DNA from: Apostichopus japonicus
Taxonomy: Eukaryota; Echinodermata; Holothuroidea; Aspidochirotida; Stichopodidae
DNA: 64,000 nt
Direction: 5' to 3'
NCBI RefSeq assembly: GCF_037975245.1
Contig: NC_092568.1
Span: forward strand, 868,001 to 932,000
The position numbers and the translations under genes were made by a program. This document shows positions 2,794-60,192 of this stretch, piece after piece (positions within the stretch are counted from its first letter, which is position 1; every line of letters begins with the position of its first letter). The notes beneath the pieces were generated by a model that worked only from the letters and a program-made list of their open reading frames with translations, was not told where the DNA came from and searched no databases.

Positions 2794-5038
2794 CTGCAAT
2801 GTGACAAAAGTAAAAACATTGAAAAAAACCTCTTTGTCTGCGTTTGAGAATGTTGAAATCGTGAGACGGTCCTGAAGATTTTGCGGGTAGCTGCCGTATT
2901 GATTTACAATTAATACCATGTGGATGCGATTGGCATATGGACAATAGAAATAAGGCCGTAAAAGAAGTTGGGAGAAAAGTATACCACAAAACCTTGAATA
3001 ACCTTGATGGGATAATGAAGTATGAGATTTCAAAACTATATTTAGTACAAAGCTTGTGAAATGTTTTGTGAAGGTCAAATCAAGTGATTGTAAACATTAA
3101 AATTAAACTATGATTTCAAACGTGGAAAGGGATTCTAATATAGCAATATTAATGGAGAACGATCAAATACAATGACGGTTTGGTGTGTGGTTCATGTACA
3201 GTACAGTATAAAATCACAGGGTTTTTACACACGTAAGACACTTTTACACAAAAAAATAGGAATTAAACTGAAAATCTCAGTAATGGAATAAAATAACATG
3301 ACAGGAGTTGAAAAAATTGCAGGAAATCCATTGAATTAAGGCTGAAATAAAGATATATATTGTAGATTCATGTACCTGTTTCATGGATACCTGTTCACCC
3401 ACTCTTAATCCTGCCGGACACTGCTGCCCCAACTAAGCAGGATATCACTCAACTCGACTTTCTTCACTCAGTTTTCAATAGTCGTGAAGAAAAGTTCTCT
3501 TACAACTGACACTGCACAGCGAATAACTAGTGAGCACACACAATGACTGTTGTCAGTTAAGTGCTCGATTGGGTCGCATAAATATACTGTAAGCTTATTT
3601 CCCTGTGATCGGTTATAAATATTTGTTAAAACTTTGTAGTATTAGTTGTAAACCACCACACATTGCCAAAAGCCACACAGTTTGAGTTAAAAATCTTGTC
3701 CAATCATAATCATTGGCATATGCACACTGCTAAGCAATCCATGATTTTCCACGAAGCATTAGTCAACTCTACAGTAGCCGAGATAAGAAGGGCAGTGTGC
3801 GGCCAGCATTTATCATAAAATCAAATCTAATCGTAAATGGCCAGTTAACTCAGGACTGTGATGAATGGTACATGTGACCTGGCTTAAAACATTTAATGGA
3901 TTTTGGTCAGCAATTTTACCAAACCTTCGGTACAGCACCAGGTATTTATCAAGATACCTGTAAGATCGTAATTTGTAACACGCCCTCTTTAAGATTTTAA
4001 GAAATGTCTCAGATTATTGTTTCTTCACAAGTAAAACTGAAGACTTAAACAAGTCTACATGACATTGTCATGCCACATGTGTTTCAATTTTTTATGTTTC
4101 TCTGTATTTATTACAATGTTTATTTGCCAAAATGGAGATGAGTTTTGCAAATGCTGACTCTAATTTGCATTCTGTTGGGTCATTGTAAAAATGCAGAAAG
4201 GGAAAAAAAACAGACACAGAAAGTAGAAAACAGATATCTTTCTTTATATTTCTTGACATAGGTAAACAGGAAAGAGTTAATTTAAGTCTACTTGATTACG
4301 AGTGTACCTGATATTCCTGCATATAGTTCCCTGGGTTTGTGTAGAGTGAAGTTGGTAGCTCTATTAGATAGGGATTCCAGGTACAACCCATTAACACATT
4401 TTATATGAATGCAAAAGAAATAATCAAGTTTTACTGAAAAGTTGAAAACAAGGATGTAAATAAGGTGTTCCAGACAAGCTTCAAAGTGTTCATAACAAAA
4501 ACTTGAGATTCTTGGGAATCACATTACACGTGACCAACAAAGTGACATGTATGGAAATATTTTCAAACCATGAGTTCACTAGAGCTTTAGTAACACTTAG
4601 TAAAAGGAAATGCATCATATCAGATAAACCTCTCTAAAAAATATGTGATGTTCATGTATGAGACACACAGATCTATGTGGACAACCTCCACTACGGGGAC
4701 TTCAAAGCAGAGCGAGATTTTAACGTGGACACAAACCTAGCCATCGTCTCTGACTATTAATATGTCAGAGATCTTTGTGAAGAACAATTCCCCAAGCAGC
4801 TAAGAAACATTCTTGTTGTGTCTTGGAGATACAGTATGTGCTTGTGTCTGAGAGCTGTCAGTTGTAAGCTGGTGATGTCATAGTGTCACTAAAGTAGGAT
4901 TTGAAGCCTTCTACCTCCTTTTTTGCTTTTCATTTCTTTTCCTTTTTCCAAGGTAGAATGTTAAATGTTGCCACTGAAACTACTGCCATAATTAGGTCAT
5001 GTTACACAAAAGAGAGGAAACATACCAGGAGTGTTATT
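2794..5038. other. non-coding, nothing recognised
   Basis: AT-rich sequence with short homopolymers. The open frames here are under about 125 codons and have no family resemblance. I see no inverted-repeat element or tRNA-like sequence. Confidence 0.5.
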
Positions 5039-5290
5039 AGGAGTGTTAGCTCAGTGGTTAACGCCGGTGCCTTCCAATCATAAGGTCCCCGGTTCGAGAC
5101 AATCCAAGATTAATGTATGTTGTCCAGTTACAGAGTTGTTGACAATTGACAATTCATAATCATGGACGTTAAATATGAATGTTGGAGACTGACTTCGGTC
5201 AGCTTGCGGCTTTGATAAGCCAATGAGGCTTCATCGCGAGTTCCTGCTTGCAGGAGGATCTAAAATTTATACAAACTGTACATACATACC
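5039..5290 (+). mobile_element. tRNA-derived SINE, copy 1
   Basis: The head carries RNA polymerase III box A (TTAGCTCAGTGGTTAACGCC) and box B (GGTTCGAGAC) at tRNA-like spacing. It is followed by a non-tRNA body (CAAGATTAATGTATG ... GACTTCGGTCAGCTTG ... TTCCTGCTTGCAGG) shared with the two other copies. The 3' tail is a short CATAC repeat. Confidence 0.8.
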
Positions 5291-26400: not shown

Positions 26401-28842
26401 AAACTGATGATTAAAACTGTTCATTACACAAGGTTTTGAATCCTGTTCTAGTCATAAAGTTCCATCCCCATTCCAACAATTTCCCAGACAGTTTTCTGAA
26501 TTATTAATCTTCTTATACAATTTTACATAAAAAAAAAATGAATTTCTCATGACATCCCTTCCCTGCCACTTCCTGGGTTGTATCGAATGCATGATCCCTG
26601 GTTACACTGAATGCAAGGCACTGTGACTTCTGACTGTCTCCCCCCCCCCCCCCCCAGGAAAGAAAAGGCTATATTGGGATCACCACCGACTAAAGGCTGG
26701 ATTAAGCAGTTGTTATGTTGTTTGTACTTCTTGAAACATATGTTTCATGAAACATATTTAACATCTTCCTGTCTCAATGGTAAATTTTATGTTAAATAAT
26801 CAGTTTATTAGCCAAGGCATGCAAAGCTTTCCCATGACTTATACCTATGTTTTACCTACAGTAATTTCTGTTGAAATAATGTGTTGTTACCATCATGAAA
26901 TGACTTGGGTAATGCCTACTTCACAGATACATCTCCTGTGGTTACAACCAGTTTTGTACATTGTGCTGATACATGAGATAAACAGAATATACTGTACTAA
27001 GGGATCTTATTCTTATTATTAGTAAAATATTTAAAATTGTGACGTTCTTGACTTTGAAAGTCTATACAATGAGCATATTGAGATGTTTGCTAAATATGAC
27101 TTATAAGCACAAATCTGGAATGTCTTCACACATGGGAAAAACTGCAAAATGCCAGAATTCTTACCTTTCCTGGAAATGAAAAGAAAGGGAAAAAATGATA
27201 AACAATTTATTTGAGCAAAACTTTGTTAATCCTATTAGAAATTTTTCATATTTGACGGCAGACACTTTGAAATAGCTGTACTTTTACATGGCCTATATGC
27301 TATTGCAGAGGTGACATGTAGATCCTAAAAATTGCCCAAATTCTCCCGATTAGTCCTGAATTTCCTGATTTCTGATAATGAAACTTTTCAATGGAAACAA
27401 AGTCAATATCATACTTTCAGTCTGGTTTTAATTGCTTTGGAATGGGTATGGAACAAGACAACATAATAAACATTGATTTCTCACACTAAAATGTACACAA
27501 AATTATCACTTTATGCATAAAACTTCCTTAAGCAAATCTGTCTTTCTCATTTTCTCAGGTTTTTATCAACCAAAACAATTAAATATAAGCTGTGCCTTAT
27601 TTGCAAGGCAGTTGGCTAAATAACAGAAATGTGTTGTGTTATTCGCCAGGTAATAAGGACTAATACTACAATTCGTCAAGCTGCTGGGTGAATAAGGAAA
27701 CGTTTGATGCTATTTGCCATGTGAATAACATGAGAGTTGTTCTTATTCACCCAGCAGCTGGACAAACTTGAAATATCTGGAACACTGTAATGTTTTAGAA
27801 TTGTGGATGTGGTGTATCTTCTACAGTACAACATGCCAAGTGTTGTTTTGGATAGAACATTGAGCAAGTTAAGGAGTATTAGCTCAGTGGTTAACGCCAG
27901 TGCCTTTCAATCATAATGTCCCAAGTTCGAGTCACTCCAAGATTAATGTATGTCGTCCAGTTAAAGAGATGTTTACAATTGTCAATTCATAATCATGGAC
28001 GTTAAATATGAGTCTAAGTGACTGACTTCGGTCAGCTTGCAGCTTTGATAAGCCAATGAGGCTTCTTCGCGAGTTCCTGCTTGCAGAATCTAAAATACAT
28101 ACATACAAGTTCTTTGAAGGACTGCCTGTTGTTTACTACAGTTTCAAAAAGGGGAATGTTTATACCAATCACATTGAACCCCCAATAAGCTGAATCCCCA
28201 ACTGTGGCAAATGTGTACCCTGCCCCTAGATTGGTGAATTAACTGCTGGACAAATAGTGAGGTAATAGTACATTGTTTTTTTGCCTGGCTGTCAGACGAA
28301 TAGTCACAATGATTCAAATTGCTCATCATGCTTTGCTGCTGATAATACTAACTACCAATCCTAATAGAATTATTGGCCTAACTTTTGAATCAGTACCATA
28401 TGAATGGGAAAGCTTACTTCGAATCGGCAGAATAAGGTTAGGGGTTAGGAAGTAGGGTTAGGGGTTAGGAATTAGGGTTAGGAAGTAGGGAATAGGGTTA
28501 GGGAGTAGGGTTAGGAAGAAAGGTTAGGGGTTAGGAAGTAGGGTCGAATGGTACAGATTCTAAATTAGTACCAAATTATTGAATAAGTCCAAACTCATGG
28601 AACAATAAATTAACCACATGGCAGATAATCCAACTTCATGTTTCAATATTACAACTGCACAGTCCGTATGTATGATTGCACCAACGTATTATACGCTAGC
28701 TTTAGTTGCAACACATAATGTCCTAGTTTCGCGAATCTCCGGGCGCGGCTATCGAAAAATTGTTTCACTTACCCACACCAAAATCACCTATGACCAAAAT
28801 TTTATACAAATGTTCTGTGACATCTGCTTCGTTTGAAGTCAT
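20466..28842 (-). CDS. Rab32/38/29-group small GTPase, ten coding exons
   Basis: Coding exons in transcript order are 28773-28842, 27165-27169, 26304-26331, 25346-25442, 24326-24382, 23828-23860, 23333-23360, 22150-22224, 21264-21372 and 20466-20626, all with GT-AG borders and compatible phases. The product has 220 residues. Motifs are: P-loop GDFGVGKT at 19-26, switch-I region TIGVDF 44-49, WDIAGHERF 67-75, NKCD 130-133, TSAK 159-162 and a C-terminal CCG. The isoleucine in DIAG and the phrases MTRVYYK and IPVLLLANKCDL are typical of the Rab32/38/29 group, which directs traffic to lysosomes and lysosome-related organelles. I cannot choose between Rab32, Rab38 and Rab29 by eye. Three oddities stand out: a 5-nt exon completes the P-loop, several exons are only 28-33 nt, and His72 replaces the catalytic Gln. 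The adjacent cysteines near the end fit double geranylgeranylation. Introns carry a SINE, a LINE end and a TTAGGG-like tract. Confidence 0.92.
24800..25000 (+). mobile_element. LINE 3'-end fragment in a Rab intron
   Basis: From 24823 to the TAG at 24871-24873 the frame reads FKRELKAYLFKKALYF, a tail common at the C-terminus of invertebrate non-LTR reverse transcriptases. A 3' segment with TGTACAGCGCCAC and CTTTATAAGTTAATAAA follows, resembling the usual 3' ends of such elements. Nothing upstream is recognisable. Confidence 0.45.
25475..25572 (+). repeat. ATAATCACACAA minisatellite
   Basis: Tandem repeats of CATAATCACACAAAT with CATAATCAAT insertions, giving a ~25-bp higher unit repeated at least twice. 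It lies in the Rab intron upstream of the exon at 25346-25442. Confidence 0.75.
27590..28295 (+). repeat. palindromic ~41-bp dispersed repeat family, cluster A
   Basis: Several words of the type TTATTCACCCAGCAGCTGG and CTGCTGGGTGAATAA occur at 27640-27780 and again past the SINE at 28235-28300. The SINE copy at 27872-28108 splits the cluster. The core is near-palindromic. Confidence 0.55.
27872..28108 (+). mobile_element. tRNA-derived SINE, copy 2 (intron 1 of the Rab gene, antisense)
   Basis: It has the same head and body as the copies at 5039 and 48060, with small indels in the 3' part and a short ACATACATAC tail. Box B is slightly degraded (AAGTTCGAGTC). Confidence 0.78.
28436..28543 (+). 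repeat. interstitial TTAGGG-like repeat tract
   Basis: About 108 bp of degenerate GGTTAGG, GTAGGGTTAGG and TTAGGAA words with many exact TTAGGG units. It lies in intron 1 of the Rab gene. It resembles an internal telomere-like tract or a simple minisatellite of the same composition. Confidence 0.7.
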
Positions 28843-37035: not shown

Positions 37036-37333
37036 AAGTGGGTGACATTTATCATTTACTAATTAAGTAAAATACAAAGAAGGAAGTTCTTTCGCAATGG
37101 TGGTGGACATTACAGTAAGTGCGTTGTAACATATTACACTGTACAGAATTGGTTAATTTGTTTAATATCTTATCAGTACGATAACATGTGGACTTAAACA
37201 TCATTATGTAATTAGAATCTGCCATTTATAAAATATCCAACAAGGGATTCTCGGATTAAACATGGCCAGACAAAATATGTAGTTGACTTCTGAATGGTAC
37301 AGTAGATAGGGAAGGAGGAGAAAGTGTGAGGTA

Positions 37334-37505
37334 TAACATCAATGGGATACCACATATCCCATCAATGAGATACCACATATCCCATCAATGGGACACTGGC
37401 ACATATCCCATCCATGGGATACTGGCACATATCCCATCAATGTGATACCACATATCCCATCAATGGGCACATATCCCATAAATGGAATACTGGCACATAT
37501 CCCAT
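37334..37505 (+). repeat. minisatellite of ATATCCCAT units
   Basis: About seven imperfect units of roughly 18-28 bp built on CACATATCCCATCAATGGGA, with variable GATACCA or ATACTGG spacers. Each unit is partly palindromic (CCCAT/ATGGG). The Met-Gly-Tyr-Val open frame across it on the minus strand is a by-product. Confidence 0.85.
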
Positions 37506-37895
37506 ACAACGGACGCAGTTCTTCAAAGCCTTTCAAGTCATGTAGTTTTTGGCAGATGGTACAGTAAATGATGTAATGTAGATTGGTGACAGACCTTAAG
37601 AGAGGGTTGAAGTAAATTTAATTTCTTTTCATCAAAGGAAGCATTAATAAGCTGATAAATTAACGATGACATTCAATTAAATAGATACAGTATGTCATTG
37701 CCCGACACAACATTATGTTAATGACGTGCAATAAGGATATCAGTTATTTCCCATTGGTCTGTTACTTTCTTATATTTTTTGTTTTAAGTGAAGTTACAGT
37801 AGTTTATTCCCACTAATTGTATCTCCATTGCAATAAGATTTTAGCATCAAACAGCATTAAAGACCTTAATACTGTAATCAGTTGCAAACATGCAG

Positions 37896-37909
37896 CATAA
37901 AAAAAACAA
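37896..37909 (+). repeat. target-site duplication, left side of the palindromic element
   Basis: CATAAAAAAAACAA, identical to 44616-44629. The last two or three bases overlap the element's own terminal CAAAATAAAA, and on the right side the first CAT overlaps the element end, so the true duplication is about 10-14 bp. Confidence 0.75.
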
Positions 37910-38331
37910 AATAAAATAAAACTGTTAGCAAACTGCTTATCCACTAGAGAGCCTGTGTAATAGAATGTGTAAAAGTAAGTTGGCCTGACGTTTCGATCCT
38001 AGCAGGATCTTCTTCAGAGGCTAAATGACAAGTTACAGTAACAGAGGGGACAAAAACACGCACAGAATACAGACAGGTTAATGAGCACGGTGAACACAAT
38101 GAGATGGATGAAAGGGGATTATAAGTAGAAAGCAACAGGAGAAGAGGAGAGGAAGGAGATAAACTGTGGAGGGACAAAGAGAGGATTAAAGGCACAGGGT
38201 AAGGAATAAACTGGAGAGGGACAAAGACAGAAAGGTGTGAAGAAAAATGGAGGGGAAGAGAGCTGTGAGAAGAAGAGTGAAAGGGGGGGGGGGAGGGAGA
38301 AAGGGGAGAAGGAGTAGGGAACAGAGGAAAG

Positions 38332-38856
38332 TTAGTCATGTCCTTCCTGAATGTTCAGCCCATGAGGTTGAATGGTACGAAGGCGTTGCATCCAGAGCCT
38401 CTCTCTGCTGATTCGTACTAGGTCAGGACGGCTACCTAAGGATTCAATCCCCTGTAGGGACATGTCGTTAATGGTATGGTTGGGAAGGTTAAAATGTTCT
38501 CCAACTGGGGTCTCAGTCTTCATGGTGTTGACTGTGGATCTGTGACCATAGAATCGCTTCTTGAGGGTGGTTTTGGTTTCGCCAACATACTGGATGCCGC
38601 AAACTCTACAAGAGATCAGATAGATGACATTGGTGGTAGTGCAAGTGATGTGACCCTTAGTCTTGTGTGTGAGTTGCATGCTGTGGCTGGTGATGGAGTT
38701 GGATTCAACAATGTGGTGGCTGCAGACGATGCATCTCGAAGTACGATCACATTTGAAGGTACCATGCTGAATGGGTGTGGGGTTAGAAGTTAGAGGTGGA
38801 ACAGCAGCACGTACAAGAAGGTCTCGTAGGGTCGTCTGTAGGCGATGATGGGTTTT
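38332..38856 (-). CDS. GIY-YIG endonuclease ORF of the Penelope-like element (left copy)
   Basis: This open frame overlaps the end of the reverse transcriptase frame. From an internal Met at 38679 it gives 115 residues. It has the GIY-YIG core (VIY at 18-20, YVG at 31-33), Arg42, His46 and a C-terminal RERLWMQRL with Glu93, plus upstream cysteines (HGTFKC, CIVC) typical of Penelope endonucleases. The nuclease nicks target DNA to prime reverse transcription. Because it is out of frame with the reverse transcriptase, a frameshift or a mutation separates them. Confidence 0.82.
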   Translation of the reverse strand, partial: KTHHRLQTTLRDLLVRAAVPPLTSNPTPIQHGTFKCDRTSRCIVCSHHIVESNSITSHSMQLTHKTKGHITCTTTNVIYLISCRVCGIQYVGETKTTLKKRFYGHRSTVNTMKTETPVGEHFNLPNHTINDMSLQGIESLGSRPDLVRISRERLWMQRLRTIQPHGLNIQEGHD

Positions 38857-41159
38857 TCAGGGACGGCTCGTTGGAGTCTATCTGAAGTGAGGAGAATGTT
38901 GTGGTTGTTAGAGGTGATTTTCTGAAGGGGAGGAAGATTTGGGTGGAAAGTAACAACCAGGGGCAGCTTGTTGTCGCAATCTCGTCCCTTTTTGTCCTTC
39001 ACTGCCAAAGTAGATGATCTGGAAAGGGAGCGGACTCTCTGAATGGCTTCACGCACCCTTCTGGCACTATGGCCCCTGGCAATAAGGTGTTTTTCCAAAG
39101 CATCTGTATGGCGAATGAAAGAGGAATTGTTAGAGCAAATGCGACGAAGACGAAGTGCTTGACTGTAGGCAATTCCAGACTTGCAGTGACGGGGATGGCA
39201 GCTTGAAGAATGGAGATACTGGTGTGTGTCTGTGGGCTTGGTGTATAAGTCTGTAGAGAGAGAACCGTGTTCCTTGCGAACAGTCACATCGAGAAAGTTA
39301 ACCTGTTGGTGAGAGTAATCAGAGGTGAATTTGATGGTGCTGTGGAAAGAATTGATGTGATGGATGAAGGTGAGCAGGCTATCCTCATCACTGGTCCAAA
39401 TGAAGAAGATGTCATCAATGTAGCGCCACCAGATAAGGGGACGGCAGGGAGCCGTACTGAGCATGCGTTCTTCAAGGCTAGACATAAACAGACATGCAAA
39501 GGAAGGAGCCATCCTGGTTCCCATGGCAGTCCCGTGTCTTTGAAGGTAATGCTTGTCCATGAACGTGAAGTTGTTTTTGGTGAGAACCTGTTGCATGAGA
39601 GCTTTGATGTCAGAGATGGGTGGACAAGGGTGGACCTTCTTAGACAGGGCTGCACACGTGGCTGCGATACCTTCAGCATGAGGGATGTTAGTGTACAGAG
39701 AAGTGACGTCGAAAGTACCGATGATGGCTGTACTGGGGATTTGGTTTTTGATATCTTCAAGTTTCCTGAGGAAATCTGGAGTGTCATGGATATAAGAATT
39801 AATCTGAGGAACAAGAGGTTTGATGAAGTGGTCCACAAACAAGGATATCTTCTCGGTGGGGGACCCATTGCCCGAGATGATAGGCCTACCAGGGTTACCA
39901 GGCTTGTGAATTTTGGGCAGGAGATAAAACCTGGCTGCCTTACAGTCTGTGGGAGAAAGGAAAGAAAAAGCCTTCTTAGAGATCTGGTTCCGCTGGTACA
40001 TATCAGTGATGGTCTGTTTTATCTGCTGGGAGAAAATATCTGTGGGATCAGAATCAAGAAGAGTGTAAATATCACTGTTGGAGAGATGACGCATGGCTTC
40101 CTTGATGTAATCCTGTCGATCCTGGATGACAACTGCAGAACCTTTGTCGGCTGGCTTGATGATAATGTCACTGCGAGACATCAGTGAGGAGAGTGCTGTA
40201 CGCTCATCTCTTGGAAGGTTGTCGTGTGTTCTGCAGAGAGGAGAGTTTGACTGGTTAGTCTCAGAGCTGACGACCTGTGTGTAGGCTTCTAAAACAGGGA
40301 CTCTGTTCTTAGGAGGCATCCAAGAACTTTTCTTGCAGAAGGGTTCCCGTTCAGTTGGAGGATCATCTAGGAAAAACTCACGAAGGCGAATTCTGCGAAA
40401 GAAATGAGTAAGATCTTGACTCAGTTCCGCTTGGTCAAATGCTGGAGGAGTAGGACAGAAGTTGAGTCCTTTGGAGAGAAGCCTAAGGTCTGCACTGGTA
40501 AGAGTAGAAGAAGATAAGTTAACAACTGCAGTTGAGGATGGTGGTTCAGACTCAGGTGGAGTCTGGGGCCTTCTAAAACGGTTGCAAGCGGTACGTTTGC
40601 GTCTTTTCTGAAGGTCAGTCATTTTCTTATTTCTTCTTTCTGTGAGTTCAATGTTCTGCTGAGACAAACACAAGTTAATTTTGTTAGTGTACTGAGTCCA
40701 TTCGTCATCGGTGCAGCATGACTGTAATTCAAGCTTCAGCCTCAGGATATCATCGTTGAGGCTATCTAAGGACAATTGGCAGTGTTTGGTGAGGATGTTG
40801 ATGAGACGGATGGAGGTGCTGTGTAAGACTCGGTTCCACTCTCTCTGGAGTCCTGGAGGGAGTGTCCCTAGTGCTGGTTGGTGTGTAACCTGTAGACCTG
40901 AGGGAATAATGCGGGAGAGAGAGTAGAACCTGTAGTTGGAAAGATGGAAAGAATAGCGCTGGGATTTCTGCATCAATTTTCTGAGCTTCTGAAACAAAAG
41001 AAAATGGTGAGACATGGTGAAAGCAGCGGGATGAGTAAATGATAAAAGTGAAATGAAAAACTGAAACACAAGAATACAAATACAAGTACAAATACAAAGT
41101 ACAAAGTAGATAAGGAGGATCACCCGAAGGGATACAGTAACAGAGCAGCTGAAAATCAA
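38790..41159 (-). CDS. Penelope-like element reverse transcriptase ORF (left copy)
   Basis: The 789-codon open frame holds a Penelope-type reverse transcriptase. IKPADKGSAVV is at about residues 335-344, YLLPKIHKPGNPGRPIISG at 412-430, motif A FDVTSLYTNIP with Asp484, motif B GTAMGTRMAPSF at 543-554, motif C YIDD at 580-583, and QVNFLDV at 619-625. The first 48 residues look like translated 5' UTR, so Met49 (MSHHFLLFQ) is a likelier start. The frame ends shortly after AYRRP, where homology moves into the next frame, which carries the endonuclease. The catalytic aspartates are intact. Confidence 0.88.
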   Translation of the reverse strand: MIFSCSVTVSLRVILLIYFVLCICTCICILVFQFFISLLSFTHPAAFTMSHHFLLFQKLRKLMQKSQRYSFHLSNYRFYSLSRIIPSGLQVTHQPALGTLPPGLQREWNRVLHSTSIRLINILTKHCQLSLDSLNDDILRLKLELQSCCTDDEWTQYTNKINLCLSQQNIELTERRNKKMTDLQKRRKRTACNRFRRPQTPPESEPPSSTAVVNLSSSTLTSADLRLLSKGLNFCPTPPAFDQAELSQDLTHFFRRIRLREFFLDDPPTEREPFCKKSSWMPPKNRVPVLEAYTQVVSSETNQSNSPLCRTHDNLPRDERTALSSLMSRSDIIIKPADKGSAVVIQDRQDYIKEAMRHLSNSDIYTLLDSDPTDIFSQQIKQTITDMYQRNQISKKAFSFLSPTDCKAARFYLLPKIHKPGNPGRPIISGNGSPTEKISLFVDHFIKPLVPQINSYIHDTPDFLRKLEDIKNQIPSTAIIGTFDVTSLYTNIPHAEGIAATCAALSKKVHPCPPISDIKALMQQVLTKNNFTFMDKHYLQRHGTAMGTRMAPSFACLFMSSLEERMLSTAPCRPLIWWRYIDDIFFIWTSDEDSLLTFIHHINSFHSTIKFTSDYSHQQVNFLDVTVRKEHGSLSTDLYTKPTDTHQYLHSSSCHPRHCKSGIAYSQALRLRRICSNNSSFIRHTDALEKHLIARGHSARRVREAIQRVRSLSRSSTLAVKDKKGRDCDNKLPLVVTFHPNLPPLQKITSNNHNILLTSDRLQRAVPEKPIIAYRRPYETFLYVLLFHL

Positions 41160-41270
41160 AATAAAATAAAACTGTTAGCAAACTGCTTATCCACTAGAGA
41201 GCCTGTGTAATAGAATGTGTAAAAGTAAGTTGGCCTGACGTTTCGATCCTAGCAGGATCTTCTTCAGAGG

Positions 41271-41272
<2 letters not shown>

Positions 41273-41311
<39 letters not shown>
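41273..41311 (+). repeat. 39-nt A tract at the centre of the palindrome
   Basis: An uninterrupted A run on the + strand separates the two head-to-head Penelope-like copies. It is not itself part of the inverted repeat (A on one arm, T on the other), so it was added or captured when the two 5' ends were joined. The last A also matches the first base of the right copy. Confidence 0.95.
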
Positions 41312-41312
<1 letters not shown>

Positions 41313-41350
41313 CCTCTGAAGAAGATCCTGCTAGGATCGAAACGTCAGGC
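41312..41350 (+). ncRNA. hammerhead-ribozyme-like motif in the Penelope-like pseudo-LTR
   Basis: The order of parts is GCCT, CTGAAGA, a 5-bp stem (GATCC/GGATC) with a 5-nt loop, GAAACGTC, then AGGC, which pairs with the initial GCCT. CUGANGA and GAAA are the conserved hammerhead core and GUC is a canonical cleavage triplet. Two deviations are visible: an extra A before stem II, and a stem III reduced to the self-complementary ACGU, which could only pair between two molecules. Equivalent copies are at 44562-44600 (+), 41233-41271 (-) and 37983-38021 (-). Hammerheads in Penelope-like pseudo-LTRs are established; activity here is inferred. Confidence 0.5.
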
Positions 41351-41423
41351 CAACTTACTTTTACACATTCTATTACACAGGCTCTCTAGTGGATAAGCAG
41401 TTTGCTAACAGTTTTATTTTATT

Positions 41424-43793
41424 TTGATTTTCAGCTGCTCTGTTACTGTATCCCTTCGGGTGATCCTCCTTATCTACTTTGTACTTTGTATTTGTACTTG
41501 TATTTGTATTCTTGTGTTTCAGTTTTTCATTTCACTTTTATCATTTACTCATCCCGCTGCTTTCACCATGTCTCACCATTTTCTTTTGTTTCAGAAGCTC
41601 AGAAAATTGATGCAGAAATCCCAGCGCTATTCTTTCCATCTTTCCAACTACAGGTTCTACTCTCTCTCCCGCATTATTCCCTCAGGTCTACAGGTTACAC
41701 ACCAACCAGCACTAGGGACACTCCCTCCAGGACTCCAGAGAGAGTGGAACCGAGTCTTACACAGCACCTCCATCCGTCTCATCAACATCCTCACCAAACA
41801 CTGCCAATTGTCCTTAGATAGCCTCAACGATGATATCCTGAGGCTGAAGCTTGAATTACAGTCATGCTGCACCGATGACGAATGGACTCAGTACACTAAC
41901 AAAATTAACTTGTGTTTGTCTCAGCAGAACATTGAACTCACAGAAAGAAGAAATAAGAAAATGACTGACCTTCAGAAAAGACGCAAACGTACCGCTTGCA
42001 ACCGTTTTAGAAGGCCCCAGACTCCACCTGAGTCTGAACCACCATCCTCAACTGCAGTTGTTAACTTATCTTCTTCTACTCTTACCAGTGCAGACCTTAG
42101 GCTTCTCTCCAAAGGACTCAACTTCTGTCCTACTCCTCCAGCATTTGACCAAGCGGAACTGAGTCAAGATCTTACTCATTTCTTTCGCAGAATTCACCTT
42201 CGTGAGTTTTTCCTAGATGATCCTCCAACTGAACGGGAACCCTTCTGCAAGAAAAGTTCTTGGATGCCTCCTAAGAACAGAGTCCCTGTTTTAGAAGCCT
42301 ACACACAGGTCGTCAGCTCTGAGACTAACCAGTCAAACTCTCCTCTCTGCAGAACACACGACAACCTTCCAAGAGATGAGCGTACAGCACTCTCCTCACT
42401 GATGTCTCGCAGTGACATTATCATCAAGCCAGCCGACAAAGGTTCTGCAGTTGTCATCCAGGATCGACAGGATTACATCAAGGAAGCCATGCGTCATCTC
42501 TCCAACAGTGATATTTACACTCTTCTTGATTCTGATCCCACAGATATTTTCTCCCAGCAGATAAAACAGACCATCACTGATATGTACCAGCGGAACCAGA
42601 TCTCTAAGAAGGCTTTTTCTTTCCTTTCTCCCACAGACTGTAAGGCAGCCAGGTTTTATCTCCTGCCCAAAATTCACAAGCCTGGTAACCCTGGTAGGCC
42701 TATCATCTCGGGCAATGGGTCCCCCACCGAGAAGATATCCTTGTTTGTGGACCACTTCATCAAACCTCTTGTTCCTCAGATTAATTCTTATATCCATGAC
42801 ACTCCAGATTTCCTCAGGAAACTTGAAGATATCAAAAACCAAATCCCCAGTACAGCCATCATCGGTACTTTCGACGTCACTTCTCTGTACACTAACATCC
42901 CTCATGCTGAAGGTATCGCAGCCACGTGTGCAGCCCTGTCTAAGAAGGTCCACCCTTGTCCACCCATCTCTGACATCAAAGCTCTCATGCAACAGGTTCT
43001 CACCAAAAACAACTTCACGTTCATGGACAAGCATTACCTTCAAAGACACGGGACTGCCATGGGAACCAGGATGGCTCCTTCCTTTGCATGTCTGTTTATG
43101 TCTAGCCTTGAAGAACGCATGCTCAGTACGGCTCCCTGCCGTCCCCTTATCTGGTGGCGCTACATTGATGACATCTTCTTCATTTGGACCAGTGATGAGG
43201 ATAGCCTGCTCACCTTCATCCATCACATCAATTCTTTCCACAGCACCATCAAATTCACCTCTGATTACTCTCACCAACAGGTTAACTTTCTCGATGTGAC
43301 TGTTCGCAAGGAACACGGTTCTCTCTCTACAGACTTATACACCAAGCCCACAGACACACACCAGTATCTCCATTCTTCAAGCTGCCATCCCCGTCACTGC
43401 AAGTCTGGAATTGCCTACAGTCAAGCACTTCGTCTTCGTCGCATTTGCTCTAACAATTCCTCTTTCATTCGCCATACAGATGCTTTGGAAAAACACCTTA
43501 TTGCCAGGGGCCATAGTGCCAGAAGGGTGCGTGAAGCCATTCAGAGAGTCCGCTCCCTTTCCAGATCATCTACTTTGGCAGTGAAGGACAAAAAGGGACG
43601 AGATTGCGACAACAAGCTGCCCCTGGTTGTTACTTTCCACCCAAATCTTCCTCCCCTTCAGAAAATCACCTCTAACAACCACAACATTCTCCTCACTTCA
43701 GATAGACTCCAACGAGCCGTCCCTGAAAAACCCATCATCGCCTACAGACGACCCTACGAGACCTTCTTGTACGTGCTGCTGTTCCACCTCTAA
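41424..43793 (+). CDS. Penelope-like element reverse transcriptase ORF (right copy)
   Basis: The 789-codon frame is identical to the left copy except for His258 in place of Arg258 (CAC at 42195-42197 against CGC). Motif A Asp484 and the YIDD motif at 580-583 are present. As in the left copy, homology leaves this frame near 43750, before the stop. Near identity of two full-length copies implies recent insertion. Confidence 0.88.
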   Translation: MIFSCSVTVSLRVILLIYFVLCICTCICILVFQFFISLLSFTHPAAFTMSHHFLLFQKLRKLMQKSQRYSFHLSNYRFYSLSRIIPSGLQVTHQPALGTLPPGLQREWNRVLHSTSIRLINILTKHCQLSLDSLNDDILRLKLELQSCCTDDEWTQYTNKINLCLSQQNIELTERRNKKMTDLQKRRKRTACNRFRRPQTPPESEPPSSTAVVNLSSSTLTSADLRLLSKGLNFCPTPPAFDQAELSQDLTHFFRRIHLREFFLDDPPTEREPFCKKSSWMPPKNRVPVLEAYTQVVSSETNQSNSPLCRTHDNLPRDERTALSSLMSRSDIIIKPADKGSAVVIQDRQDYIKEAMRHLSNSDIYTLLDSDPTDIFSQQIKQTITDMYQRNQISKKAFSFLSPTDCKAARFYLLPKIHKPGNPGRPIISGNGSPTEKISLFVDHFIKPLVPQINSYIHDTPDFLRKLEDIKNQIPSTAIIGTFDVTSLYTNIPHAEGIAATCAALSKKVHPCPPISDIKALMQQVLTKNNFTFMDKHYLQRHGTAMGTRMAPSFACLFMSSLEERMLSTAPCRPLIWWRYIDDIFFIWTSDEDSLLTFIHHINSFHSTIKFTSDYSHQQVNFLDVTVRKEHGSLSTDLYTKPTDTHQYLHSSSCHPRHCKSGIAYSQALRLRRICSNNSSFIRHTDALEKHLIARGHSARRVREAIQRVRSLSRSSTLAVKDKKGRDCDNKLPLVVTFHPNLPPLQKITSNNHNILLTSDRLQRAVPEKPIIAYRRPYETFLYVLLFHL

Positions 43794-44251
43794 CTTCTAA
43801 CCCCACACCCATTCAGCATGGTACCTTCAAATGTGATCGTACTTCGAGATGCATCGTCTGCAGCCACCACATTGTTGAATCCAACTCCATCACCAGCCAC
43901 AGCATGCAACTCACACACAAGACTAAGGGTCACATCACTTGCACTACCACCAATGTCATCTATCTGATCTCTTGTAGAGTTTGCGGCATCCAGTATGTTG
44001 GCGAAACCAAAACCACCCTCAAGAAGCGATTCTATGGTCACAGATCCACAGTCAACACCATGAAGACTGAGACCCCAGTTGGAGAACATTTTAACCTTCC
44101 CAACCATACCATTAACGACATGTCCCTACAGGGGATTGAATCCTTAGGTAGCCGTCCTGACCTAGTACGAATCAGCAGAGAGAGGCTCTGGATGCAACGC
44201 CTTCGTACCATTCAACCTCATGGGCTGAACATTCAGGAAGGACATGACTAA
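43727..44251 (+). CDS. GIY-YIG endonuclease ORF of the Penelope-like element (right copy)
   Basis: Open from 43727, it overlaps the reverse transcriptase frame by 67 nt in another register; the internal ATG at 43904 gives 115 residues. It has the same GIY-YIG residues as the left copy (VIY, YVG, Arg42, His46, Glu93). The region upstream of that ATG encodes the cysteine-bearing linker usual before the nuclease in this family, which argues that translation should enter from the reverse transcriptase rather than from this ATG. Confidence 0.82.
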   Translation, partial: KTHHRLQTTLRDLLVRAAVPPLTSNPTPIQHGTFKCDRTSRCIVCSHHIVESNSITSHSMQLTHKTKGHITCTTTNVIYLISCRVCGIQYVGETKTTLKKRFYGHRSTVNTMKTETPVGEHFNLPNHTINDMSLQGIESLGSRPDLVRISRERLWMQRLRTIQPHGLNIQEGHD

Positions 44252-44615
44252 CTTTCCTCTGTTCCCTACTCCTTCTCCCCTTTCTCCCTCCCCCCCCCCC
44301 TTTCACTCTTCTTCTCACAGCTCTCTTCCCCTCCATTTTTCTTCACACCTTTCTGTCTTTGTCCCTCTCCAGTTTATTCCTTACCCTGTGCCTTTAATCC
44401 TCTCTTTGTCCCTCCACAGTTTATCTCCTTCCTCTCCTCTTCTCCTGTTGCTTTCTACTTATAATCCCCTTTCATCCATCTCATTGTGTTCACCGTGCTC
44501 ATTAACCTGTCTGTATTCTGTGCGTGTTTTTGTCCCCTCTGTTACTGTAACTTGTCATTTAGCCTCTGAAGAAGATCCTGCTAGGATCGAAACGTCAGGC
44601 CAACTTACTTTTACA

Positions 44616-44629
44616 CATAAAAAAAACAA
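44616..44629 (+). repeat. target-site duplication, right side of the palindromic element
   Basis: CATAAAAAAAACAA, the partner of 37896-37909. It lies on the outer side of the second copy, so the pair encloses both elements and not each one separately. Confidence 0.75.
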
Positions 44630-48059: not shown

Positions 48060-48290
48060 CAGGAGTGTTAGCTCAGTGGTTAACGCCGGTACCTTTCAAT
48101 TATAAGGTCACAAATTCGAGTCACTCCAAGATTAATGTATGTCGTCCAGTTACAGAGTTGTTGGCAAATGATAATTCATAATCATGGACGTTAAATATGA
48201 ATCTAGGAGACTGACTTCGGTCAGCTTGCCGCTTTGATAAGCCAATGATTGCTTCTTTGCAAGTTCCTGCTTGCAGGAGGATCTAAAATA
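48060..48290 (+). mobile_element. tRNA-derived SINE, copy 3
   Basis: This is the third copy of the family. Box A is intact; box B is decayed (AAATTCGAGTC). Its terminal CATA repeat runs directly into a long microsatellite, which suggests the tail seeded the expansion. Confidence 0.8.
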
Positions 48291-48497
48291 CATACATACA
48301 TACATACATACATACATACATACATACATACGCGCATACATACATACATACATACATACATACATACATACATACATACATACATACATACATACATACA
48401 TACATACATACATACATACATACATACACACATACATACACACATACATACACCCATACATACATACATGCACACATACATACATACATACATACAA
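48288..48497. repeat. (CATA)n microsatellite growing from a SINE tail
   Basis: About 210 bp of CATA/TACA tetranucleotides with a few interruptions (CGCG, CACA, CCCA, TGCA). It produces long spurious open frames of repeating Met-Tyr-Val-Cys or Ile-His-Thr-Tyr on both strands, which are not genes. Confidence 0.95.
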
Positions 48498-50757: not shown

Positions 50758-50943
50758 ACCGGTGTGAAGTTAGATACTTATTCCCCGTTCCTCGTTCGAT
50801 ATTCGCGAATGAGTAACTGCTACCGATTCAGTTACGTATTCGACAATGGTATCGACGTAACACCTCTGGCAAGACAAAAGCTTTCTTACAAGATGTTCAA
50901 CATATGGTCGTGGAAAGAGGTTTATCTATGGCCCATGGGTCAT

Positions 50944-53875
50944 ATGAACTCTAATAACTATGTAGAAGGGTACCATAATGCATCTTGCCCGGTCCAAATA
51001 GTTTTTGACCAACTAAAATGACCAGTACTTCATCAGCTCTTAAATTAATGTAAAAAATTACTTTAGGCCCTAATCAAGACTAGCACGCCTTGGACCACCT
51101 TACCAATGGGTCATATGAATTCTTAACACATTGTAGAAGGATACCATAATGCGTCTTGCCCGGTCCAAAGAGTGCTTGACCAATTAAAATGACCATTAAA
51201 TCAACTTTTTTTTTAAATAAATGTAACGGGAACTGAAATAAAAACATTTGGGCCCTAATCAAATCCAGCACGCCTTGGACCGCCCAACCAATGGGTCATG
51301 GGAAGTCTGAGGACATTGTAGAAGAGTACCATAATGCGTCTTGCCCGATCCAAAGCGTGCTTGACCAATTAAACTGACCATTAAAGCATTACTTCATCAT
51401 CGAGTGTAACCGGACCACGAAAAAGCTTTGGGCCCTAATCCATGCAGCACGCTTTGGACCACCAAACCGATGGTTAACATGAACTCTAAGGACATTGTAG
51501 AAGAGTACCATAATGCGTCTTGCCCGGTCCAAAGCGTGCTTGACCAATTAAACTGACCATGAAATCATTACTTCATCATCGAGTGTAACGGGACCATGAA
51601 AAAGCTTTGGGCCCTAATCCATGCAGCACGCTTTGGACCACCAAACCGATGGTTAACATGAACTCTAAGGACATTGTAGAAGAGTACCATAATACGTCTT
51701 GCCCGGTCCAAAGCGTGCTTGACTAATTAAACTGACCATGAAATCATTACTTCATCATCGAGTGTAACGGGACCACGAAAAAGCTTTGGGCCCTAATCCA
51801 TGCAGCACGCTTTGGACCACCAAACCGATGGTTAACATGAACTCTAAGGACATTGTAGAAGAGTACCGTAATGCGTCTTGCCCGGTCCAAAGCGTGCTTG
51901 ACCAATTAAACTGACCATGAAATCATTACTTAATCATCGAGTGTAACGGGACCACGAAAAAGCTTTGGGCCCTAATCCATGCAGCACGCTTTGGACCACC
52001 AAACCGATGGTTAACATGAACTCTAAGGACATTGTAGAAGAGTACCATAATGCGTCTTGCCCGGTCCAAAGCGTGCTTGACCAATTAAACTGACCATGAA
52101 ATCATTACTTAATCATCGAGTGTAACGGGACCACGAAAAAGCTTTGGGCCCTAATCCATGCAGCACGCTTTGGACCACCAAACCGATGGTTAACATGAAC
52201 TCTAAGGACATTGCAGAAGAGTACCATAATGCGTCTTGCCCGGTCCAAAGCGTGCTTGACCAATTAAACTGACCATGAAATCATTACTTCATCATCGAGT
52301 GTAACGGGACCACGAAAAAGCTTTGGGCCCTAATCCATGCAGCACGCTTTGGACCACCAAACCGATGGTTAACATGAACTCTAAGGACATTGTAGAAGAG
52401 TACCATAATGTGTCTTGCCCGGTCCAAAGCGTGCTTGACCAATTAAACTGACCATGAAATCATTACTTCATCATCGAGTGTAACGGGACCACGAAAAAGC
52501 TTTGGGCCCTAATCCATGCAGCACGCTTTGGACCACCAAACCGATGGTTAACATGAACTCTAAGGACATTGTAGAAGAGTACCGTAATGCGTCTTGCCCG
52601 GTCCAAAGCGTGCTTGACCAATTAAACTGACCATGAAATCATTACTTAATCATCGAGTGTAACGGGACCACGAAAAAGCTTTGGGCCCTAATCCATGCAG
52701 CACGCTTTGGACCACCAAACCGATGGTTAACATGAACTCTAAGGACATTGTAGAAGAGTACCATAATGTGTCTTGCCCGGTCCAAAGCGTGCTTGACCAA
52801 TTAAACTGACCATGAAATCATTACTTCATCATCGAGTGTAACGGGACCACGAAAAAGCTTTGGGCCCTAATCCATGCAGCACGCTTTGGACCACCAAACC
52901 GATGGTTAACATGAACTCTAAGGACATTGTAGAAGAGTACCGTAATGCGTCTTGCCCGGTCCAAAGCGTGCTTGACCAATTAAACTGACCATGAAATCAT
53001 TACTTAATCATCGAGTGTAACGGGACCACGAAAAAGCTTTGGGCCCTAATCCATGCAGCACGCTTTGGACCACCAAACCGATGGTTAACATGAACTCTAA
53101 GGACATTGTAGAAGAGTACCATAATGCGTCTTGCCCGGTCCAAAGCGTGCTTGACCAATTAAACTGACCATGAAATCATTACTTAATCATCGAGTGTAAC
53201 GGGACCACGAAAAAGCTTTGGGCCCTAATCCATGCAGCACGCTTTGGACCACCAAACCGATGGTTAACATGAACTCTAAGGACATTGTAGAAGAGTACCA
53301 TAATGCGTCTTGCCCGGTCCAAAGCGTGCTTGACCAATTAAACTGACCATGAAATCATTACTTCATCATCGAGTGTAACGGGACCACGAAAAAGCTTTGG
53401 GCCCTAATCCATGCAGCACGCTTTGGACCACCAAACCGATGGTTAACATGAACTCTAAGGACATTGTAGAAGAGTACCATAATGCGTCTTGCCCGGTCCA
53501 AAGCGTGCTTGACCAATTAAACTGACCATGAAATCATTACTTCATCATCGAGTGTAACGGGACCACGAAAAAGCTTTGGGCCCTAATCCATGCAGCACGC
53601 TTTGGACCACCAAACCGATGGTTAACATGAACTCTAAGGACATTGTAGAAGAGTACCATAATGCGTCTTGCCCGGTCCAAAGCGTGCTTGACCAATTAAA
53701 CTGACCATGAAATCATTACTTCATCATCGAGTGTAACGGGACCACGAAAAAGCTTTGGGCCCTAATCCATGCAGCACGCTTTGGACCACCAAACCGATGG
53801 TTAACATGAACTCTAAGGACATTGTAGAAGAGTACCGTAATGCGTCTTACCCGGTCCAAATAGTATTTGACCAAT
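50944..53875 (+). repeat. 179-bp tandem array, left arm of the fold-back element
   Basis: Seventeen unit starts can be followed by the phrase GAACTCTAAGGACATTGTAG. Those from 51481 to 53808 are spaced exactly 179 bp apart (14 units), while the outer three (50944, 51117, 51301) are spaced 173-184 bp apart and are diverged. Each unit contains GGTCCAAAGCGTGCT and its exact reverse complement. No open frame is conserved across units. Confidence 0.95.
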
Positions 53876-54868
53876 ACAAACGACTAATGCACAATCATTA
53901 TCCAGTAGATTCATCAATATCTTCTTTTTTGAATTTCAACTCTACGTCTGTACCAGTGTGGTGATACAAAACAAAAGCAACACCTTTGGCTCGCAAGTTT
54001 AATGCTTATTGGTGCTTTACAATCATCAGCATACAAAGTTTCCTTCCCATTCCGGAGAAACACACGCGCACTCTTCTTTTTTTTTTGGGGGGGGGGGGGA
54101 GGGCCTTAGCGCAACTACATTTTCAGAATGAAGTGATTTCTGTAGACTGGCAACGAACTGAAAACGTTGTTGTTTTAATTATTCGTTTATAGAACTTAAT
54201 TTTATTTCTTTTATTCATTTCACCCGTCAACCCTTCACATATTTACAGATTTAAAGAACAAAGAAGTGTTCTTGCCTCTCTTCATGAAAGTGGTTTTGAA
54301 CGCTTTAACCCCCTTCGTAGATTCTGAAAGATTCCACTGCTACATTCTAGAGCTGACCATCGAGCTATAAACAGACAATCAGTCATCTCGGGTCAAGCGG
54401 AGATAAACTGACTTTAATAGTTTATTGAGCAAAATAGTCTTCAAGTGAAATAGGTCTACCCAGACATATATTTTATGCCGAAATCCCTTTCTGATTTATT
54501 TATGATCTCCATTAGCCATAGTTGGTAATGAACCATCCAAGTTACCCTATAGTGCCATTCTATGCATTTTGATTTTATCGTGTTCCCATGCATGTGCTTG
54601 TTCTTTCTCTTAGCGATTTTTCAATAGAAAGTTTCTCTTGGAGTGTAGAAGGCAGATCCACCATAAGAAGTCTCACTGGGTTTATTCCAACTAAACATAG
54701 ACCAGAGTTAGTGTGATTTTATAGTTGATTTCCTTTCATTCAGTTCTACCTAATTATTAATTATAACGTCCATAATCTAGCCAGGGACGTCGCTAGAGGG
54801 GGGTGTGGGGTGTCTCATCCCCCCCCCCCCCAAATCTTGGTAAAACTGACGAAAGTTGGAAAAATTTT

Positions 54869-57052: not shown

Positions 57053-57384
57053 TAGAAAGATGCTGTCGCTTTATGCCATCGTGTTCAAATATCTGCCACA
57101 TTGCAATTTTTCCCTTTTGATTAGGCTGAAATTTCGTAAGTGATTTGAGTAAGTTAAAGTGTTATATGCTAACATATCGATGAATTCGGAAGTCATTTAG
57201 AGGCTTTTTTAAATTGTAAAAACTTTCCGACAGAATTTGGCCATGTATATAGACATTCTGCCATTAATTGGAATGCACTTAAAACGAGTTCTCTCTTTTT
57301 CATTCCTTGAGGGTCCAAAGTGCAATTTGTAATGCTACCGGTTGACACTAAACGCACGATACATAACATATGAGATGGACACTC

Positions 57385-60000
57385 ATTTAAGAAGTGATGA
57401 TGTAGTGGTCATTTAAATTGGTCAAGCACACTTTGGACCTGGCAAGACGTATTATGGTACTCTTCTACACTGTCTTAAAAAATCATATGACCCATCGGTT
57501 AGGTGGTCCAAGGCGTTGTGGTCTGGATTAGGGCCCAAAGCTTTTTCGTGGTTCCTTTTCACTCATTAAAGAAGCAATGATTTAGTGGTCATTTAAATTG
57601 GTCAAGCACGCTTTGGACCGGGCAAGACGCATTATGGTACCCTTCTACAATGTCCTTAGAGTTCATGTTAACCATCGGTTTGGTGGTCCAAAGCGTGCTG
57701 CATGGATTAGGGCCCAAAGCTATTTCGTGGTCCGGTTACACTCGATGATGAAGTAATGATTTCATGGTCAGTTTAATTGGTCAAGCACGCTTTGGACCGG
57801 GCAAGACGCATTATGGTACTCTTCTACAATGTCCTTAGAGTTCATGTTAACCATCGGTTTGGTGGTCCAAAGCGTGCTGCATGGATTAGGACCCAAAGCT
57901 TTTTCGTGGTCCCGTTACACTCGATGATGAAGTAATGATTTCATGGTCAGTTTAATTGGTCAAGCACGCTTTGGACCGGGCAAGACGCATTATGGTACTC
58001 TTCTACAATGTCCTTAGAGTTCATGTTAACCATCGGTTTGGTGGTCCAAAGCGTGCTGCATGGATTAGGTCCCAAAGCTTTTTCGTGGTCCCGTTACACT
58101 CGATGATGAAGTATATAATGATTTAATGGTCAGTTTAATTGGTCAAGCACGCTTTGGACCGGGCAAGACGCATGATGGTACTCTTCTACAATGTCCTTAG
58201 AGTTCATGTTAACCATCGGTTTGGTGGTCCAAAGCGTGCTGCATGGATTAGGGCCCAAAGCTTTTTCGTGGTCCCGTTACACTCGATGATGAAGTATATA
58301 ATGATTTAATGGTCAGTTTAATTGGTCAAGCACGCTTTGGACCGGGCAAGACGCATTATGGTACTCTTTTACAAAGTCCTTAGAGTACATGTTACCCATT
58401 GGTTAGGTGGTCCAAAGCGTGCTGCATGGATTAGGGCCCAAAGCTTTTTCATGGTCCAATTACACTCATTAAAGAAGTAATGATTTAGTGGTCATTTAAA
58501 TTGGTCAAGCACGCTTTGGACCGGGCAAGACGCATTACGGTACTCTTCTACAATGTCCTTAGAGTTCATGTTAACCATCGGTTTGGTGGTCCAAAGCGTG
58601 CTGCATGGATTAGGGCCCAAAGCTTTTTCGTGGTCCCGTTACACTCGATGATGAAGTAATGATTTAATGGTCAGTTTAATTGGTCAAGCACGCTTTGGAC
58701 CGGGCAAGACGCATTATGGTACTCTTCTACAATGTCCTTAGAGTTCATGTTAACCATCGGTTTGGTGGTCCAAAGCGTGCTGCATGGATTAGGGCCCAAA
58801 GCTTTTTCGTGGTCCGGTTACACTCGATAATGAAGTATATAATGATTTCATGGTCAGTTTAATTGGTCAAGCACGCTTTGGACCGGGCAAGACGCATTAT
58901 GGTACTCTTCTACAATGTCCTTAGAGTTCATGTTAACCATCGGTTTGGTGGTCCAAAGCGTGCTGCATGGATTAGGGCCCAAAGCTTTTTCGTGGTCCCG
59001 TTACACTCGATGATGAAGTAATGATTTAATGGTCAGTTTAATTGGTCAAGCACGCTTTGGACCGGGCAAGACGCATTATGGTACTCTTCTACAATGTCCT
59101 TAGAGTTCATGTTAACCATCGGTTTGGTGGTCCAAAGCGTGCTGCATGGATTAGGGCCCAAAGCTTTTTCGTGGTCCGGTTACACTCGATGATGAAGTAA
59201 TGATTTAATGGTCAGTTTAATTGGTCAAGCACGCTTTGGACCGGGCAAGACGCATTATGGTACTCTTTTACAAAGTCCTTAGAGTACATGTTACCCATTG
59301 GTTAGGTGGTCCAAAGCGTGCTGCATGGATTAGGGCCCAAAGCTTTTTCATGGTCCAATTACACTCATTAAAGAAGTAATGATTTAGTGGTCATTTAAAT
59401 TGGTCAAGCACGCTTTGGACCGGGCAAGACGCATTACGGTACTCTTCTACAATGTCCTTAGAGTACATGTTACCCATTGGTTAGGTGGTCCAAGGCGTGC
59501 TGCATGGATTAGGGCCCAAAGCTTTTTCGTGGTCCCGTTACACTCATTGAAGAAGTAATGATTTAATGGTCATTTAAATTGGTCAAGCACGCTTTGGACC
59601 GGGCAAGACGCATTATGTTACCCTTCTACAAGGTCCTCAGACTTCCCATGACCCATTGGTTGGGCGGTCCAAGGCGTGCTGGATTTGATTAGGGCCCAAA
59701 TGTTTTTATTTCAGTTCCCGTTACATTTATTTTAAAAAAATGTTGATTTAATGGTCATTTTAATTGGTCAAGCACTCTTTGGACCGGGCAAGACGCATTA
59801 TGGTATCCTTCTACAATGTGTCAAGAATTCATATGACCCATTGGTAAGGTGGTCCAAGGCGTGCTAGTCTTGATTAGGGCCTAAAGTAATTTTTTTACAT
59901 TAATTTAAGAGCTGATGAAGTACTGGTCATTTTAGTTGGTCAAAAACTATTTGGACCGGGCAAGATGCATTATGGTACCCTTCTACATAGTCATCGGAGT
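57385..60000 (-). repeat. 179-bp tandem array, right arm of the fold-back element
   Basis: About fifteen copies of the same unit in reverse orientation. Several units carry a TATA insertion (spacing 183 bp), and a distinct diverged unit recurs at 58372 and 59271, about five units apart. The outermost copies match the diverged outer copies of the left arm, as expected of a true inverted repeat. Confidence 0.93.
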
Positions 60001-60192
60001 TCATATGACCCATGGGCCATAGATAAACCTCTTTCCACGACCAAATGTTGAACATCTTGTAAGAAAACTTTTGTCTTGCCAGAGGTGTTACGTCGATACC
60101 ATTGTCGAATACGTAACCGAATAGGCAGCTCAGTTACTCATTCGCGAATATCGAACGAGGAACGGGGAATAAGTATCTAACTTCACACCGGT

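Follow-up and report, generated by a model that had tools for sequence, protein, structure and literature searches.

How did two complete copies of one retroelement come to lie head-to-head, as near-perfect mirror images, at a single target? The locus that raises this question lies in a 64,000-nucleotide stretch of the Apostichopus japonicus genome (C8:868001-932000, hereafter the window), which we analysed together with searches of 671.6 Mb of genome sequence in 35 contigs.

Layout of the palindrome and identity of the element

The features of the insertion, in window coordinates, are as follows.

37896..37909, no strand: left target-duplication copy, with A8 certain at 37899-37906 and CAA at 37907-37909 also element sequence
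37907..37964, minus strand: tail of the left copy, ending 3' at the outer start site and lacking in the right copy (direct repeat; scored tailed by script)
37965..41272, minus strand: left arm, a complete Penelope-like element (PLE) copy in reverse orientation (window self-comparison)
38332..38856, minus strand: GIY-YIG endonuclease frame of the left copy, mirrored by 43727-44251 (Pfam match from the right copy)
38790..41174, minus strand: reverse transcriptase frame of the left copy, mirrored by 41409-43793 (Pfam match from the right copy)
41215..41272, minus strand: 5' pseudo-LTR of the left copy, 58 nt, repeated at 37965-38022
41273..41310, no strand: centre, A38 between the two 5' ends (letters read)
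41311..41368, plus strand: 5' pseudo-LTR of the right copy, 58 nt, repeated at 44561-44618
41311..44618, plus strand: right arm, a complete PLE copy with a tail-less 3' end at 44618 (self-comparison, end script)
41312..41349, plus strand: hammerhead-like motif, showing the core letters; stems I and II form when 51 nt are folded
41409..43793, plus strand: reverse transcriptase frame of the right copy (Pfam RVT_1, E 7.3e-9)
43727..44251, plus strand: GIY-YIG endonuclease frame of the right copy (Pfam GIY-YIG, E 4.5e-5), in a frame different from that of the reverse transcriptase
44616..44629, no strand: right target-duplication copy, with A8 certain at 44619-44626 and CAT at 44616-44618 also the element end

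The two 3308-nt arms are reverse complements with one mismatch (40387 C and 42196 T), which is coding and gives R in one translation and H in the other. The first-pass annotation had placed an exact mirror axis at which position p pairs with 82583-p, and this holds (37965 + 44618 = 82583), as does its count of one coding difference in about 3.3 kb per arm; its placing of the 3' ends outward and of the 5' ends at the centre is borne out. The termini are nevertheless unlike despite the mirrored arms, in that the right copy stops at its arm end, while the left copy runs on past the mirror for 58-63 nt (37902/37907-37964) that match element sequence downstream of the 5' repeat, an extension supported by the direct repeat 37902-38025 = 41152-41275. 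This difference, which stems from the PLE tail and is the informative feature of the locus, had been overlooked. The palindrome in the window is confirmed as real, with corrections to the 3' end and to the duplication length.

The latter correction concerns the 14-bp flank repeat CATAAAAAAAACAA, which occurs within the window only at 37896 and 44616, with no occurrence between the copies. That it occurs once at each outer edge stands as first described; that all 14 bp are target sequence does not, since both edges overlap element letters. Because CAT in the right repeat is also the element end and CAA in the left repeat is also element sequence, only A8 is certain as target duplication, and 14 bp is the maximum. 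A chance match in an A-rich site had been named as a possible refutation, and in 3000 random draws of 25+25 nt junction pairs within the window (pairs less than 200 apart skipped), at least 11 shared bases occurred once and at least 12 never, though an A-run is weaker evidence of duplication than this figure implies.

The identification as a PLE is upheld by the reverse transcriptase and GIY-YIG domains in each copy, by the 58-nt pseudo-LTR repeats, and by tandems of about 3250 nt and inverted pairs of the element in its own genome. The two domains lie in different frames in both window arms, and in a single frame of 902-929 codons in five of six other copies tested, representing four of five insertions, with different frames in the remaining copy. 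Because both arms share the split that five of the six others lack, the template of the window insertion probably had its reading frame broken beforehand and relied on protein supplied from another source. The putative hammerhead shows the core letters of the motif; its stems I and II fold in 51 nt and not in 123 nt, and Rfam searches returned no hammerhead match at the gathering score or at E values up to 5.

The surroundings hold other repeats. A short tandem array of CACATATCCCATCAATGGGA-like units lies at 37328-37513, just left of the insertion; two arrays with units of about 179 bp (50758-53897 and 57379-60192) are mutually inverted and about 95% identical; and a dispersed repeat of about 250 bp is present in three copies (5039-5289, 27872-28107 and 48061-48311) that are 88-90% identical. 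A plasmid search gave no match.

Head-to-head insertions in the genome and their outer ends

Mirror-image double insertion is a regular product of this PLE family in this genome. A 28-mer near the 3' end has 2011 genome matches with at most two mismatches, and the 100 exact matches listed fall at 90 places, nine of which hold two or more ends; the first 20 of these places, fetched whole, comprise one head-to-head insertion (L027) and 19 single ones. The 117-nt exact 3' end (window 44501-44617) has 131 genome matches, and when neighbouring 3' ends less than 12 kb apart are joined, 100 of the 131 form 71 clusters: 49 single, 20 head-to-head, two tandem only and none tail-to-tail. Sixteen of the 20 head-to-head clusters are simple, two have a second unit on the right arm and two have further units on both arms. 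A cluster scored as single could include a short second arm that escaped the count, as was the case at L027; inspection of L053, L055 and L059 for a second arm found none. With 20 of 71 clusters head-to-head among these 100 listed ends, and head-to-head PLEs already published (PMC3846280), the earlier description of an unusual integration mode has to be withdrawn. Insertions with intact ends are plentiful in this genome, and a palindrome of this kind is in itself nothing unusual for the family.

What is not ordinary is the pairing of the outer 3' ends. These ends form two groups, stopping at element positions 3297-3315 (tail-less) or 3363-3374 (tailed), two classes that answer to the optional 3' tail produced by two start sites in PLEs. 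All 26 head-to-head insertions read at both outer ends have one tailed and one tail-less end, and none has two ends alike. The end script scored 14 as tail-less on the left and tailed on the right and 11 as the reverse, and left C20:31.54M undecided where its blast alignment ran into the flank, an end that by eye is at the tail-less site. An apparent exception, C16:32.742M, was missing from the exact tail list at its right end and proved to carry an altered tail there. The idea that the longer arm is always the one without a tail was considered and rejected, the pairs read being mixed.

The 26 independent insertions comprise 18 from the 20 head-to-head clusters and eight from other genome searches, and the rule covers these, other head-to-head centres at the pseudo-LTR start lying outside the count. 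Two were left out: C10:5.617M, which is head-to-head at its centre and whose left outer end is not an element 3' end, so that it is unscored, and C11:10.647M, which has the same flanks as C11:7.254M and was counted with it once. The latter two (C11:10646586-10646881 and C11:7254092-7254387), an identical short head-to-head insertion with its flanks at sites about 3.4 Mb apart, are probably a segmental duplication. Single insertions, classed by hand, are tailed in nine and tail-less in 10 of 19 cases, and under independent choice at this ratio 26 unlike pairs of 26 would have a chance of about 1e-8. Selection of the insertions should not favour unlike ends, because the 117-nt 3'-end pattern finds both kinds, and among the 54 genome matches of the tail pattern no pair has two tailed outer ends, C10:5.617M apart.

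The flanks of these insertions point to a single target each. A genome search for other head-to-head pairs sharing one duplication, proposed with the original observation, found them: at least 11 flanking bases are common to both sides in 25 of the 26 insertions (24 by script and one by eye), namely the window, 23 sister insertions and C20:31.54M, where 14 bases match by eye and 6 by script, although such shared bases can in part belong to the element too. One duplication around two outward 3' ends, as dual target-primed insertion demands, is therefore present in 25 of 26. The exception, C7:18.217M, is a diverged and very short pair with only seven shared bases, and at C11:7.254M, which sits in an AAT repeat, the 27 shared bases do not measure duplication. 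Among the 19 single insertions from the first 20 places fetched whole, 10 share at least 11 bases between their flanks and nine do not.

Relatedness of the arms and structure of the centres

The arms are mostly of like source. Arms overlap in 18 of 19 pairs, and their distance was counted as mismatches plus gap openings and compared with that to the nearest other copy, where nearest means nearest among those sampled: five for each of the window and C13, and as many as 37 for the remaining pairs. In the ten pairs with more than 500 nt of overlap, the distances between arms and to the nearest other copy are as follows.

Window: 1 between arms, 12 to the nearest other
C13:11.69M: 0 between arms, 4 to the nearest other
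C14:1.27M: 1 between arms, 3 to the nearest other
C9:23.53M: 2 between arms, 7 to the nearest other
C16:32.567M: 2 between arms, 5 to the nearest other
C11:15.67M: 3 between arms, 6 to the nearest other
C6:9.51M: 1 between arms, 2 to the nearest other
C17:32.26M: 1 between arms, 2 to the nearest other
C14:8.95M: 2 between arms, 2 to the nearest other (tie)
C8:41.31M: 3 between arms, 2 to the nearest other (reversal)

In eight of the ten, therefore, the two arms resemble each other more than either resembles any other locus sampled; the eight shorter pairs comprise one that is closer within (C3:25.304M), six ties and one reversal (C11:7.254M). States common to both arms and absent from all other sampled copies covering the place occur in nine of 18 pairs, the C6:9.51M row of this comparison holding an alignment fault (544 differing columns). 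The 23 private shared states of C3:25.304M reflect a diverged copy, and the six private shared columns of the window arms amount to two indels, one judged against four other copies and one against 22. Gene conversion between arms could add to their likeness.

The centres were scored in 19 insertions, of which 13 are blunt or overlapping and six have extra bases, and 11 of the 13 have at least two shared bases at the joint, compared with 16% expected by chance under equal base use. Outside the 19 are the window (A38), C7:18.217M (A10) and C13:11.69M (48 nt), all with extra bases, and four further centres. The centres are consistent with the joining of two cDNA ends, in many cases through microhomology. 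Arm lengths differ in most of the other pairs read; the equal lengths in the window would follow from both cDNAs having run to the 5' end of the RNA.

The window centre has its closest counterpart at C7:18217170-18217207, where A10, or A11 counting the element's own A, lies between the arms. Both belong to a class of centres at the pseudo-LTR start; arms stopping at or near this point were found at 67 and 22 places in two genome searches, with at least one place in both. Of the 50 centres listed from the first search, 14 read GGC-TAAAA or longer in one or both arms, although the element itself has three A at that point (GGCTAAATG, read on the strand opposite to 44557-44566). A38 would be accounted for if cDNAs reaching the RNA 5' end gained extra A, whether by slippage or by jumping to a poly(A) tail as template. 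A poly-A leader as a family trait was rejected, A10 in front of the 5' end being present, as an exact pattern, at three genome places, and one of these, L049 (C2:20800636-20800693), is a solo 58-nt pseudo-LTR with a complete 5' end that appears to be inserted in a T/A tract.

Proposed mechanism, alternatives and known systems

We consider it probable, at roughly 0.7, that the palindrome arose in a single integration in which both DNA ends of one staggered break served as primers, reverse transcription began at different adjacent start sites, and the products were joined head-to-head. Two-strand priming with joining of the cDNAs, as first proposed for this locus, is also the best explanation for the 25 sister insertions, its supposed rarity aside. 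The PLE endonuclease would cut the two strands about 8-14 nt apart, as the duplication suggests, leaving 3' overhangs; reverse transcriptase on one DNA end would begin at the tail-less start site and that on the other at the tail start site, some 58 nt beyond; most likely the two sites would be on one RNA held between the DNA ends. In the window both cDNAs would be copied to the RNA 5' end, giving complete and equal arms, and the two same-sense cDNAs would then be joined at their 3' ends, through the A-tract here and through short microhomology in many other events, after which fill-in would make the palindrome and the duplication.

One RNA serving both broken ends is suggested because each pair read uses one of each start point. 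A more specific version, which we hold tentatively and at a little under even odds, is that one RNA is copied twice by two reverse transcriptase units, one per DNA end, seated on start sites about 58 nt apart, with the trailing unit displacing the leading cDNA, so that pairs are always one-tailed. If so, integration at both ends would be what the paired start sites are built for, and the tail would be the trace it leaves. We infer a single RNA, as opposed to two RNAs of one locus, and likewise the order of priming and joining.

The alternative that survives best, and which we still regard as unlikely, is dual priming with two separate RNAs, in which strand order sets the start site and the first-nicked strand always uses one site and the second the other. 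It would account for all 26 unlike pairs without a shared RNA, and near-identical arms would follow if both RNAs came from one locus, but the private states common to both arms in half of the pairs compared ask for the same source each time, and if single insertions are cases in which second-strand priming failed, one end type should dominate among them, against the nearly even division observed. Far less probable is self-priming, as proposed for Adineta PLEs (PMC3846280), in which a cDNA or antisense transcript snaps back and the second arm copies the first. Near-identical arms and the GAATTC palindrome at the nearly equal-length joint of C14:1.27M are what it would produce; several pairs, however, are clearly unequal, one having its 5' ends at element positions 3077 and 2641 and another at 3081 and 1408, a snap-back copy would not give outer ends that differ in type in every insertion, and in the window the extra 58 nt at the left end only contradict it, so that we reject it for unequal arms and unlike ends. 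A single insertion later duplicated in inverted orientation, or an assembly fold-back of one copy, has a negligible probability and is rejected, since it accounts for the high arm identity but predicts 3' ends of one type at the two sides, with flanks that mirror each other, whereas the ends and flanks differ and the target repeat is direct.

Dual priming brings to mind the twin priming of L1, in which primers come from the two strands of one target and the product is inverted; L1 copies different parts of one RNA, whereas here both arms copy the same sequence. Among PLEs themselves, the Penelope elements of Adineta vaga are most frequently observed head-to-head, with duplications of 8-10 bp in several copies and none in others, and with a tail that is called optional and lies on one of the inverted pLTRs (PMC3846280). 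They resemble the window element in their head-to-head inverted pLTRs, in the duplications of several copies and in the optional tail, and they differ in that self-priming on an antisense template was proposed for them; the text covered of PMC3846280 does not tally end types. For single copies, too, inverted pLTRs and short 3' extensions have been described (PMC8969392). A literature search, to which older PLE papers in subscription journals were out of reach, yielded no paper in which every insertion is said to pair one start site with the other; earlier work has described PLEs lying head-to-head, tails that are optional and, in vitro, priming on both strands, and the strict start-site pairing per insertion appears to be what is new here.

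The mode of PLE integration has been described as largely open (PMC11167929), and the closest comparator is PAc, a Penelope/Poseidon-type PLE of the green anole, whose enzyme in vitro cuts both strands and extends them, initiates internally at two adjacent sites with the tail between them, and is predicted to form a dimer (PMC11167929). It is like the window element in combining a reverse transcriptase with a GIY-YIG endonuclease, pseudo-LTRs, two internal start sites and two-strand cleavage and extension, the PAc observations being in vitro; its tail is quoted as 30-40 bp (PMC11167929), compared with about 58 here, and the text covered of that paper gives no per-insertion rule like the one-of-each pairing of this family. 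Because no start-site difference between strands was seen for the anole enzyme in vitro (PMC11167929), the rule needs a step absent from those results. Conversely, the pairing of one tailed with one tail-less end turns the optional tail into a test of how many RNAs and reverse transcriptase units act at one target, and it would account for the presence of two start sites in the in vitro assays.
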